DNA of 64,000 nt from Phorcus lineatus. Its lineage: Eukaryota > Mollusca > Gastropoda > Trochida > Trochidae. The stretch covers positions 1,922,001 to 1,986,000 of the forward strand of contig OV121081.1 in assembly GCA_921293015.1 (NCBI GenBank), read 5' to 3'. Numbering within the stretch: position 1 is the stretch's first letter; every line of letters begins with the position of its first letter. Under the pieces are notes generated by a model, which was not told the DNA's origin, did not search any database, and saw only the letters and a program-made list of their open reading frames with translations. This document shows, in pieces, positions 3,374 through 41,586 of this stretch. The position numbers and the translations under genes are program-made.

Positions 3374-6300
3374 ATGTCTGCCTCCAGCAAGCCAATGAAC
3401 GTCAGATTTGTTAACATGGACATTTCTACCGTGTCGGTGGAGGCCGTGGCTACAGGAGAAGACCCAAATTTAGAGATTGAAAGTTGTGTGACAACTTCTT
3501 TGATTAAAGCCTTTCCAAAATTCAGAGCAATAAGGGAGGAGCTGAAGAAAAAAAACAATAAAGGGTTAAAGTTTGGAACAGTGCTTCTTTCATTTCTAGG
3601 AGAACCTCGCAGTGAACGGAATAGAGCTAATTTCAAGTATGTATTTCATGCTGTAATGGATCGCACAATCATCAGCAAGAAATCCGAATTGATTATGAAA
3701 ATGGAAATGGAAAGTCTCTACTGCAATATATTCGAGGCTTCTGAAAGACTCAAACTTAACAGTGTGGCTCTCCCTCTGATGGGGACAGGTTTGTACAAGT
3801 ATAGTGTTGTCTGTAGCTTGCTGGTAGAGTATACTCGACCTTACAAAGGATGGTTTGATTAAAATGGATTGTTCTTTAGTACTTTGTTAGTTGAAATAAT
3901 TTCACGAGAAAAAGTAGCCGGGCTTTTTGGTGAAAGATTTCACATTATTTTATGTCGATGAAGTTAAGTGCTTTAGGTCAATTGTTTTCTCTCTTGTCTA
4001 ACATCTCGGCAAGTTATAGTGAAGTGTTTAGTTAAGATAGACCGATCTTTCTTACCAAATAAAGGCACAACTGCACAGTTTCAATAGTAAGCTGAGAATT
4101 GAATAAAAATCTATGTTGCTTAATGTGTTTTTTTCGGTTTCATGATCAAGATCCAAAATTTCAAATTATCTTATCTAAACCTGCTATGACTCCCCGATCT
4201 GTCCACTCTTTTATGGTGGATGATTTTATCCACGTGCTAAGGGACTGAAATTTAGGAGGAAACACGTTTATCCCAACTCACTATCTCGACTTACCTTCAA
4301 TAAAAAAAATTTTATTTTTTTATTTATAGTTTTATTTCCAATAATATATACATGTATCAATCACATAAAATAATTACTTAAACAAAAATTGACATGATGA
4401 CCAAAACTTAAAGAACACATCATTTCTATTTGAAATTTCAAAATTTATATCTGTAACTTTTAAAGTAATCATCATAACTGCTATTGCTAGCAATAACGGC
4501 TCAAGTAGCATCCACATGATTTGTATGTTTGATATTCTTAATATATATCATTTGATAAAATTTCTTTCAGGAGCATTTCCTATCGACGCCTCCCTAGCTA
4601 TTGAAGCCCTGGCCAAGGCTATTGTTAAGACTTGCTTTGATTACCTCACTGACCTGAAGGTTGTCTGCACGGACGAGGTTTTTCTGAACTCTGCCAAACA
4701 ACAGTTTATCTTTCAATGGCAAGGACAAATTAAACGTGGTTTTCACGGGCTCTTGCTAGATGGAGCGCCCATTGAATCGATGGAAAGCCAAGCAGATAAA
4801 GACCGTCAAACATATCAGCGAAACAGCAAGAAAACCGTACCTGCAGACACACTTTCTGGAAGAACAAACAACACCCATTACATCAGAAAGATATATCACA
4901 CTCCTGGAGCAACAGGGTATGATAGAGGAAGACGATCAGTTGAAGACATTGGACGAAACTTTTCAGACGTTGAATTATCGCACAGTAAGCAACATTCAGG
5001 TCGATATGAGGATGTCGATAACCAAGCTATATCGTCATCAAATGGACGATTACAAAAAGACAGATGCCACAGCTTTAAAGGGAAACACAAACATCGACAT
5101 GATCCAATACAGTCTGACGAACAGTTAGCTTGGTCTATGCAGAACAAAGAGGAATCCATCTCCGGGAAATCTGCAGTTGACGAATACTTAAAACTTGCTT
5201 GCAAAGGTCAAAAACAAGAATCTCAAGAACATGCTCAAAAAGATGAGAATGAAAAGGACTTAAAAGCAAGTGCTTTCAATGATGACTATCACGAAGAAAC
5301 ATGTTCAATTTGCCTCGACACCGTATGTGATCCCAAGACGCTGGACAAGTGTGGTCATGTGTTCTGCAGGGGCTGCATAGATCGCAGCTTCAGAGACTAC
5401 AAGCCTGTGTGTCCCACCTGCAACAAGGTGTACGGAGAGGTGAGAGGGAACCAGCCGGACGGACAGATGGACGTGGGCTACAGTGATGGGGATCTTCCCG
5501 GGTACGAGGGTTATGGATCCATTACCATCACTTACAGCTTCCAGGATGGAATACAACAGGTATGTGGTTTGGCGTGAGATCATAATTTGTCAGTGGTCAA
5601 AGGTCAACTCTATAGGTAAAAACATCATAAATTTGTGTTATTCCAATGAAAGGGTTCACGAGGGTGTACACAGCATGCGTGCCATTATGTTTGTTATACC
5701 CAAACTGTGAGTATAAGAAAGCAGGTCTCTGTTCACAAGTTATTATCAATTGTCGCCAATTCCTTTGGTTGAAAACGATTGTAGACTTGCAATTAATTGA
5801 AAGTGTTTTGTGGATCGGTGCCCAGGTGGGAAAATATAATTGACATTCTTAAACGAAAGAACGTGATCATTTCGCCCTTATAGATTTACTTATTTAAGCC
5901 TTATTATCTTATCAGGTGCATAATGCCAATGACTGTTATTACAGAGAGATCACCCCCGCCCAGGGCGGCCCTACTATGGTACAACACGTTTTGCCTATCT
6001 GCCAAATAATAAAGAAGGGAAGAAAATCTTAGCACTTTTGCAGAAAGCTTTCGACAGGAAACTAACGTTTACCATTGGTCGTTCAACAACTACAGGAAGG
6101 GAGGGTGTTATCACATGGAACGATATCCACCACAAGACAAACATTGACGGGGGACCAAGCCGGTAAGTTAATGTTATATATATGATACCTAAATGCGAGT
6201 TTCTCATAAATTAATTTATTTTCTCAAACTGTGTTCCACAGACTATATCGCTTTTGGGAGATGAAGTGACTACACCTAGGAGAAATCGTTTCGACAGGAG

Positions 6301-6839
6301 ATTTAAATGCCAGTGTCAAATACATGACATCACTAATGTTTTAAACCATCAAAAAAGCATATAATATTTTAAACAGGACAACGTCACAAAGCTTTGTCGT
6401 GACCGTTTTGGGAGTCTAGGGGCAGTTTTGTGTTAAAAGTAGTACACTTTTTCTGGGAACGTAATGAAAGGATATTCAGGATGATTGATCAACACTCTAA
6501 GATAGAAGAAAAAACATCCTCGGCATGCTTTGGATATATGTGTAACTTTAATAAACATTCGTTGATATATTTGATATCAGAAGACAGTTGTGGGATCTCG
6601 TATATATCAAATATCGTGGAATTATTCAAATATGAAAGTTTTTCCAAGGGACAAAAAATAAGCATTAAAAATAGGTAACAACCCAGAAGTGATAAGAAGT
6701 CTTGGAATATGTCTTGTAGTCTTTGGAAATCAAATAGTTCAATAATCCTGCCATTTGCTGTTTCAGATTTGGCTACCCCGACCCGACCTACCTGTCTCGA
6801 GTTCGTGACGAACTAGCCAGTAAAGGAGTAACGGAATAA
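3374..6839 (+). CDS. Macro domain - RING - Deltex C-terminal (DTC) E3 ubiquitin ligase, DTX3L-like, copy 1
   Basis: Coding exons are 3374-3788, 4571-5559, 5945-6162 and 6767-6839. All have GT-AG introns, phases agree, and the joined frame is 564 aa. The start ATG has a good context (ACCATG) and follows a likely acceptor (TGTTTCAG) at 3361, so an upstream 5'UTR intron is expected. Residues 1-~180 resemble a macro domain: a GTVLLSFLG strand, FKYVFHAV, and the LPLMGTG loop, which is split by intron 1. A polar linker follows, with a UIM-like [11 protein letters not shown] helix. Residues ~383-422 form a C3HC4 RING (CSICL...CGHVFCRGC...CPTC). The rest is the Deltex C-terminal fold ([41 protein letters not shown]). 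Family knowledge: RING-DTC proteins ubiquitylate substrates, and the DTC binds ADP-ribose/NAD+. It is the most diverged of the three copies. Confidence 0.9.
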
Positions 6840-40200: not shown

Positions 40201-41586
40201 GAAGTGGAACACAAGGGGCAAGTATTATTTGGAGTTATCTCATGACGATCATTTTGATTTGTCCATGACCTTTCCCTTCAATATGCTCAAATACTAAAAG
40301 ACTCGCCTCAATATCGACGATTGACTTGACTAAAAACTCCCTTGATATGAACACTATGTAGCAAACAGGAGGCAAATATTGTACATATCACCTGTTATTA
40401 TAATGATTATATAAACACTTTGTACTGAAATTCGGATATTTATGTATATGAGGCTAAAAGGTAATGCAGTCTATTACAATAGACAAAAGAGGGAGGTGTA
40501 CAGTGATCGGTATGTTTACAATACGTAAATGATCATTTATAGTAAATGGCATGAAACGGTTGCTTCACGAATAGGCTGATCTATTGCAGGACTCACACCC
40601 CAACCCAGGTCGGCCCTTCAAAGGGACAACCCGTACTGCCTATCTGCCGGACAGCAAGGAGGGTCGAGCTGTGCTGAAACTCCTGAGATTAGCTTTTGAC
40701 AGGAAGCTCACATTCACCATCGGTCGTTCTACAACTACCGGGAGGGAAGATGTCGTCACTTGGAACGACATCCATCACAAGACCAACAAATATGGGGGTC
40801 CTACAAGGTTCCTCCTTTCTCCTTCCTTATTTTAGTGTTCTGTATTGTTTATTCATCTTTGATAAGATATAACGTCCGTGTGCAAACCCTTATAAACTGA
40901 TAGGAAGTGTTTACATTCACCAGACACAAGATATTAAGGTAGTATTGATACCTAACAATATGACACTGCACCGACTGTATCAGTAACGCAACTGCATGGT
41001 GTCTTGGTTACCTGCTGGTACAGTCTGTAATGGCGGTGTTGCCTGACCCCCGAGACGCGCGGGTTCGACTCCGGCAATGGACTCGACCCGACAAGTATAA
41101 GCATTTCAACCACTGGAGTTAGTGTGATCTAAAATTAACATTTTTTTCACTATCTAATAAATTGTATATATCTAGACAAGGTGTTTGCTCTATGACTGCA
41201 AACTGAAACTACATGGGATCTTTTTAGGAAAATTACAAAGCGTAATTGAGACGGGTAGTCAGCTTGTTATCTTGTTCGCTGTTCGTATGCTGTCAAACCT
41301 TGTTTAATATTAACTTCTGATAACTTGTAGGCTTTGTACGCTTAAGATTGTAGTCTAGCGCCTGTTGATATAAATAAGGGCGACATCGCTGTTACTCGTA
41401 TTTATTGATCATAGAAGATTTTATTGAACAAAAGAAAATATTTTAGACACAGATCAATATGACACTGTTCTCACATAAAACTAATAACCTTGCAATGTAT
41501 TTGCTTCCATTAGATTCGGCTACCCTGATGCGACCTATCTAGCCAGAGTGAGAGACGAGTTGGCTAGCAAAGGAATTACAGGATGA
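37212..41586 (+). pseudogene. Macro domain - RING - Deltex C-terminal gene, copy 3, frameshifted
   Basis: Exons are 37212-37632, 39266-40217, 40590-40807 and 41514-41586, nearly identical to copy 2. Exon 2 is 952 bp against 953 in copy 2. One A is missing at 39762/39763 (GCGGGTCACTG versus GCGAGGTCACTG). The frame therefore ends at TGA 39787-39789 after ~314 residues, just past the macro region and inside the UIM-like helix. The RING (CSICLN...CGHVFCRGC...CPTC) and DTC are intact in the shifted frame, and an ATG at 39786 could begin them. The copy 2 start codon is GTG here (37206), so the start is taken at 37212. Intron 2 again has a GC donor (40218). Possible readings are a young pseudogene, a separately translated RING-DTC protein, or an assembly error. 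Confidence 0.8.
39786..40217 (+). CDS. Possible downstream RING exon frame of copy 3
   Basis: Starting at ATG 39786, this frame carries the acidic linker, the C3HC4 RING and the start of the DTC. It splices in phase to 40590-40807 and 41514-41586, giving ~240 residues of RING-DTC without the macro part. The ATG lies in an unremarkable context (GGAGATGAG). Translation would need re-initiation or an alternative promoter, so this is only a possibility. Confidence 0.3.

Follow-up and report, generated by a model that had tools for sequence, protein, structure and literature searches.

Two genes of the gastropod Phorcus lineatus probably encode single-chain, Deltex-type E3 ligases in which an N-terminal macro domain serves as a targeting head and guides the enzyme by ADP-ribose. 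They lie, together with a third copy, in a stretch of 64,000 nucleotides (the window; positions 1922001-1986000 of contig OV121081.1, here C1) from an assembly of 958 Mb in 74 contigs. The one-chain macro-RING-DTC architecture is supported at the level of sequence, because the domains are complete, the splice sites agree in phase and the arrangement is repeated across the genome. Domains, splice-site phase, catalytic residues and conservation across the family are each demonstrated below.

In the proposed mechanism, the macro head would most likely recognize ADP-ribose or an ADP-ribosylated protein, the helix between the macro domain and the RING may hold ubiquitin, and the RING would recruit E2~ubiquitin. 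The His-Glu pair of the DTC domain would activate the ADP-ribose hydroxyl such that ubiquitin is placed there, as for the human DELTEX proteins, and by that analogy transfer of ubiquitin to ADP-ribose is predicted for the products of genes 1 and 2. This would be a self-targeting version of such a ligase, where the head finds an ADP-ribosylated target and the RING-DTC part ubiquitylates it. The family is expanded, partly in tandem, and probably has a role in innate immunity. Given that related heads are joined to PARP or OTU tails at sibling loci, makers, readers and removers would share one targeting module. The reading addresses two open questions, namely the way in which Deltex ligases locate ADP-ribosylated targets and the identity of the enzymes that write or erase the ADP-ribosyl-ubiquitin mark. 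A natural single-chain macro-RING-DTC protein with PARP and OTU siblings would be a compact system in which to test targeting, writing and erasing, and it bears on the origin of the DTX3L/PARP9/PARP14 cluster.

Domains and exons of the window genes

Genes 1 and 2 (window 3374-6839 and 23744-29963) give modelled chains of 564 and 558 amino acids (aa) with no internal stops and with intron phases of 1, 0 and 2, and each chain carries, in order, a macro domain, a ubiquitin-binding-like helix, a C3HC4 RING and a DTC domain. Pfam models were run on the exon-joined chains with curated cut-offs (Macro 22, zf-C3HC4_2 27 and UIM 21 bits). The initial annotation had proposed a macro-like region followed by a C3HC4 RING and DTC, and all three domains lie above the Pfam cut-offs in both genes: Macro at 26.7 bits in gene 1 and 26.3 in gene 2, zf-C3HC4_2 at 37.2 and 42, with several RING models passing, and DTC at 199 and 198 bits over the full model (1-133 of 133). 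The RING is followed directly by DTC, as in Deltex E3 ligases, and the RING-DTC part matches human DTX3L at 1.3e-51 and DTX2 at 5.7e-46. All RING zinc ligands are kept in both genes, as is the DTC His-Glu pair, where the first His of IHHKT and the Glu of RDEL correspond to His582 and Glu608 of DTX2. For this numbering the offset was taken from what we presume to be the length of DTX2, and the 26-residue spacing of the pair agrees with 582/608. These two DTX2 residues have been proposed as catalytic (PMC7615817; here and below, statements from the literature rest on parts of the cited papers).

The macro assignment is strengthened by a profile, A2, built from an alignment of the spliced macro region of 14 family rows. 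Against AF1521 this profile scores 3.8e-12, with positions 2-159 of 165 aligned. A PARP14 chain that holds two macrodomains scores 2.4e-17 as a whole, its best stretch being 4-161, and in both cases the alignment crosses the splice junction. The PARP14 macrodomains taken singly match at 3.4e-7 and 1.9e-6, and PARP9 at 2.2e-5. Comparison of a single sequence with the PDB is weak (best 5.7e-4), and AlphaFold2, given three exon-1 pieces only in an alignment of 3 rows, returned models with a mean predicted local distance difference test score of 42, which are unusable and give no verdict on the macro fold. Almost all A2 rows keep the Asp7-Ile8 pair that follows strand 1, and the two GxG-loop glycines do not vary.

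The helix between the macro domain and the RING had been called UIM-like. The position of the helix stands, but the likeness to a UIM is weak in the window genes and falls below Pfam recognition, with zero UIM matches at E<=1 in genes 1 and 2. The relative L043 is above the UIM cut-off (22.2 vs 21), and L042, L044 and L039 are under it. Compared with composition shuffles, a UIM core pattern has 9 matches in 22 open reading frames (ORFs) where 1.6 are expected, and at least one of these, situated in the macro part, is no UIM; the pattern has 0 matches in 4 window ORFs.

The initial annotation joined exon 1 to exon 2 at 3788/4571 and 24176/27627, and at both joins GT and AG sites are found in phase 1, such that splicing of the macro exon to the RING exon is predicted in vivo. 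Exon 1 holds 138 whole residues in gene 1 and 144 in gene 2, and the Pfam Macro match continues to residues 149 and 156, stopping 11-12 residues beyond the junction, within exon 2, in both proteins. The donor of intron 2 is GC in genes 2 and 3. Three one-chain genes with a common exon structure had been claimed, and this holds for the intact genes 1 and 2; gene 3 (37212-41586) is laid out alike but has lost one base in exon 2 relative to gene 2, which breaks its frame and ends the chain at the helix before the RING. Barring an assembly error at that position, gene 3 is a broken copy.

A family of heads across the genome

When two macro heads were searched against the genome, 26 and 22 matches came back, all on C1 and C29 and with exon pieces counted singly, and a search for DTC gave at least 59 exon-level matches among the best candidates listed. 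Beyond the window, 20 stretches were read with several kb of flank each, and with the three window genes these provide 23 heads (24 rows, given that the L052 head is split over two ORFs). A head is present in all 20 further stretches. In total there are at least 26 macro heads, all on C1 and C29, including three (L026, L028 and L029) that were viewed in 3.3 kb pieces only and have no tail within them.

The phase-1 junction, pairing a GxG-loop donor with an exon 2 acceptor, occurs in 20 of the 23 heads, where the acceptors of L036 and gene 3 were set by eye. The other three are L035 and L045, which have a donor and no recognisable start of exon 2, and L037, where a deletion in exon 1 removes the donor. 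A first script scored phase 1 only; in a control that scored every nearby GT and AG in all phases, phase 1 was best or tied for 22/22 donors and for 19/20 acceptors, the exception being the gene 2 acceptor.

DTC stands behind the head in 17 of the 23. Conversely, 18 DTC core places were located on C1 and C29, two of them at L043, and every one follows one of these 17 heads on its own strand, at a distance of 2.0-7.3 kb. The C3HC4 pattern is intact at 12 of the 17 DTC loci, the catalytic His is kept at 10 (as NDVHHKT in L040), and a pattern for the last DTC exon matches at 15, all except L047 and L048. A two-exon head, C3HC4 and His occur together at seven loci: genes 1 and 2, L040, L043, L047, L048 and L053. 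At L043 (C1:29121500-29131490, minus strand), the stopless DTC exon 4 opens into a 902-aa frame that ends in a second DTC start, and Pfam detects no RING in that frame.

A second DTC group, with 10 DTC core places, is present on contig C13. No macro head was found there in two homology searches, the upstream DNA of these DTC genes not having been read; one of the C13 loci, L006, was viewed within 1.5 kb flanks, and another, L002, on the strand opposite to its DTC. A scan of viral contigs for the DTC core produced 404 stretches that fit the pattern, of which 0 were confirmed.

Selection on the macro exon was estimated with a Nei-Gojobori script for the 20 pairs that are more than 50% identical in that exon. 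The ratio of nonsynonymous to synonymous substitution rates (dN/dS) is 0.20-0.57 in 17 of these pairs. For gene 2 and gene 3, it is 0.57 in macro, 0.24 in RING and 0.08 in DTC. Trees were made for the macro region (22 rows) and compared with RING-DTC trees over 14 shared genes. Groups common to both trees are gene 2/gene 3, L043/L044 and the trio of gene 1, L037 and L038; deep order is weak in both, with long branches.

Points against an ADP-ribose-guided ligase

Several observations weigh against the reading of genes 1 and 2 as ADP-ribose-guided ligases, and they concern the splice junction, the macro pocket, the history of the copies and the loss of catalytic features. The gene 2 acceptor at 27627 is weak, in that a better pyrimidine tract precedes an AG lying 28 bases upstream in a different phase. 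In addition, the exon 1 ORFs continue beyond the donor to a stop (window 3332-3862 in gene 1 and 23717-24220 in gene 2). Both points would suit two transcripts, whereby a short protein with macro alone comes from exon 1, and a separate ligase, beginning in exon 2, comes from the RING-DTC exons. Such an arrangement is most improbable, given that the Pfam macro match enters exon 2 and the family profile extends deeper into that exon, that the phase-1 junction recurs in 20 of the 23 heads, and that a head lies upstream of all 18 DTC core places.

The macro pocket departs from that of AF1521. The alignment with AF1521 displays its NAAN and GGGV stretches, which we take to be ADP-ribosyl hydrolase motifs; both are replaced in 14/14 A2 rows (TGEG..ESGV in gene 2), and an unusual Glu20 is invariant in A2. 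Because NAAN is absent, targeting is likelier than hydrolysis, and the head is not classed as a hydrolase; as judged from these residues it likely lacks hydrolase activity. The same replacements mean that the pocket may not bind ADP-ribose at all. In the trio of gene 1, L037 and L038, dN exceeds dS in the macro exon in 3/3 pairs, with ratios of 1.4-4.4; dS is only 0.015-0.037, and therefore the changes are too few to claim positive selection; L037 is also a damaged copy.

The replaced motifs beside an invariant Glu20, and the excess of dN over dS in the gene 1 cluster, are both consistent with a real fusion whose macro domain no longer binds ADP-ribose. The head would then be a protein-binding or dimerisation scaffold, or a detector of pathogen proteins, and the ligase would act on lysines of other targets. 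This alternative is rather unlikely: Asp7-Ile8 and both GxG glycines are kept, related heads precede PARP exons, where a link to ADP-ribose is natural, and the DTC catalytic pair is kept in genes 1 and 2.

The trees conflict in places. Within the trio, L038 is paired with gene 1 in the macro tree (93/89) and with L037 in the RING-DTC tree (96/88), and L035 groups with L048 in the RING-DTC tree only (96/93). These conflicts suggest some exchange between copies. L053 and L054 are paired only in the macro tree of the two made over the 14 shared genes.

Finally, the C3HC4 pattern fails at 5/17 DTC loci and the catalytic His is lost at 7/17; therefore, many of the copies are inactive as ligases of this type. 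The window genes could themselves be recent, functionless pseudogenes of a larger family, decaying as tandem copies. The frameshift of gene 3 would agree with that, as would the neighbours L037, with its exon 1 deletion and no donor, and L038, the catalytic His being changed in both. Decay is nevertheless very unlikely to account for genes 1 and 2, which are fully open and keep all zinc ligands and the DTC pair, and the dN/dS values between genes 2 and 3 speak against it as well.

PARP and OTU tails, known systems and neighbouring features

Related heads also precede tails of other kinds. At L049 and L050 (C1:45.708-45.717 Mb, minus strand), the macro exons are followed by an OTU cysteine-protease domain with one in-phase intron and with its Cys and His motifs (GNC and HY) kept, and then by a stop; with the pieces joined by eye, Pfam OTU matches at 4.5e-12 and 2.9e-13. 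L051 has DTC without RING and without the His, followed by an OTU domain (1.5e-12). These three OTU copies of one kind lie behind heads at C1:45.708-45.722 Mb, and no other OTU match in the genome exceeds 42% identity. By profile matches, an OTU-like part without the Cys is present at L039, L041, L042 and L046. Comparison of the OTU set with L041 and L046 by hhalign gives a probability of 84 (E 7.4e-6), and Pfam OTU matches L039 at 0.0028, under cut-off; Pfam finds no match in the OTU-like pair of L041.

The first two PARP catalytic exons, all of one kind, are both found at seven places (L039, L041, L042, L044, L045, L046 and L054), each behind a head on the same strand, and the two L041 exons, when joined, match Pfam PARP at 7.1e-9. 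At L041 and L046, the OTU-like part continues in phase across the exon junctions into PARP; at L042, L044, L045 and L054, head and PARP are linked by position only. More distant PARP matches, 29-43% identical, occur on C13.

In the macro tree, the OTU-tailed L049 and L050 group with the ligase L048 and with L053 and L054 (99/98), and the PARP-tailed L041 groups with the ligase L040 (93/86), to which it is 89% identical with a dN/dS of 0.23. L045 and L046 join L043 and L044 (90/87, drawn open), and the deep forks are weak. Related heads before ligase, PARP and OTU tails may thus have come about via loss from a composite ancestor, via exon exchange, or via both.

A candidate for such a composite is L039 (C1:2225484-2229554, plus strand), where eight exons are in phase and encode 731 aa with no stop, in the order macro, UIM-like helix, degenerate RING, DTC without the His, OTU-like part and start of PARP. 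Pfam DTC (1.1e-36) and Macro (3.9e-5) are above cut-off at this locus, OTU and UIM are under it, and no RING is matched. The next PARP exon is found 1.8 kb on, at C1:2231319. Given an ATG in the small exon 5, L039 can also be read as two genes. The catalytic His is absent at all DTC loci with PARP behind (L039, and L044 and L054 by position) or OTU behind (L051); given that 7/17 DTC loci lack the His, chance would produce this with a p of 0.015, for a pattern noticed post hoc.

As a tentative proposal, which we hold somewhat short of even, the family may descend from one composite macro-UIM-RING-DTC-OTU-PARP chain that is still readable in phase at L039. Duplication with complementary loss would then have given rise to separate ligases, PARPs and OTU proteases with related heads. 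If so, the ancestral chain held the parts for writing, reading and erasing the ADP-ribosyl-ubiquitin mark, and it would be a fusion counterpart of the vertebrate DTX3L/PARP9/PARP14 assembly, suggesting how such a gene cluster arises.

Human DELTEX ligases attach ubiquitin at the ADP-ribose 3' hydroxyl, and two deubiquitinases that were tested remove it (PMC7615817). DTX3L works with PARP9 and PARP14, which supply macrodomains, and the genes are expressed from the same locus (PMC12687431, PMC13224862). The window genes resemble this system in the RING-DTC with its His-Glu pair, in bringing macro domains and a ligase together, and in the PARP partner. In humans, however, macrodomains are on PARP9 and PARP14 and RING-DTC is on DTX3L, joined by KH-like domains, whereas here macro and RING-DTC share one chain. 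The KH-like domains of DTX3L are N-terminal and include its PARP9-binding part. Pfam KH has no match at E<=1 in the chains of genes 1 and 2, where divergent KH-like folds could escape; the N-terminus is macro. The analogy to PARP9/DTX3L drawn in the initial annotation therefore gains from the sibling loci with a related head before PARP exons, but it is weakened by the broken gene 3 and by the absence of NAAN and GGG.

DTX1, DTX2 and DTX4 (WWE-WWE-RING-DTC) likewise have a module that reads ADP-ribose chains ahead of RING-DTC (PMC7615817), although their reader is WWE rather than macro. RNF114-type ligases read the double mark with an ADP-ribose-binding part and a UIM on one chain (PMC13061329). 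RNF114 and RNF166 (RING-ZnF-UIM) thus resemble the window genes in carrying ADP-ribose- and ubiquitin-binding parts with a RING on one chain, in their case extending ADP-ribosyl-ubiquitin, and they differ in having zinc fingers in place of macro, the RING first and no DTC (PMC13061329). Expansion of DTC genes in molluscs is known from bivalves, in which the Deltex-C orthogroup OG268 has a mean of 13.1 genes per species vs 3.6 elsewhere, as the table columns read (PMC8382680). A search of the main text of that paper finds neither 'macro' nor 'PARP', and an OTU orthogroup is listed apart. Among the literature matches listed, in which subscription journals are mostly uncovered, no macro-RING-DTC, macro-OTU or invertebrate DTX3L/PARP fusion is described.

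Table 1. Exons of the three window genes, in window coordinates
Feature	Position	Strand	Content
Gene 1 exon 1	3374..3788	+	Macro N-terminal part; ends in phase 1 at GTG loop
Gene 1 exon 2	4571..5559	+	Macro C-terminal part, linker with ubiquitin-binding-like helix, C3HC4 RING, DTC start
Gene 1 exon 3	5945..6162	+	DTC core with WNDIHHKT (His matching DTX2 His582)
Gene 1 exon 4	6767..6839	+	DTC end (Glu matching DTX2 Glu608), stop
Gene 2 exon 1	23744..24176	+	Macro N-terminal part
Gene 2 exon 2	27627..28579	+	Macro C-terminal part, linker, RING, DTC start; weak acceptor, GC donor
Gene 2 exon 3	28957..29174	+	DTC core
Gene 2 exon 4	29891..29963	+	DTC end, stop
Gene 3 exon 1	37212..37632	+	Macro N-terminal part, open
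Gene 3 exon 2	39266..40217	+	One base fewer than gene 2 in ubiquitin-binding-like helix; frame broken ahead of RING
Gene 3 exon 3	40590..40807	+	DTC core; open alone, out of frame with exon 1 in the assembly
Gene 3 exon 4	41514..41586	+	DTC end, stop codon; open alone

Between genes 1 and 2, a long array of short repeats with many 10-base spacings and strong GC skew occupies window 13000-17200, and a GC-rich block with ORFs lies at 18400-22800. These ORFs resemble a retroelement with a recombinase-like end; Pfam has no match for the three that were run. A fragment with a reverse-transcriptase zinc-binding domain (Pfam zf-RVT, 1.4e-9) is located between genes 2 and 3 at 35851-36507 on the minus strand. 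A tandem repeat with a 67/69-base spacing and about 21 copies extends from the end of gene 3 (41491-43150), and related copies lie directly after gene 2 (29946-30144). The ligase cluster is adjoined by a caspase domain gene on the minus strand (46254-47153; Pfam Peptidase_C14, 2.6e-48).

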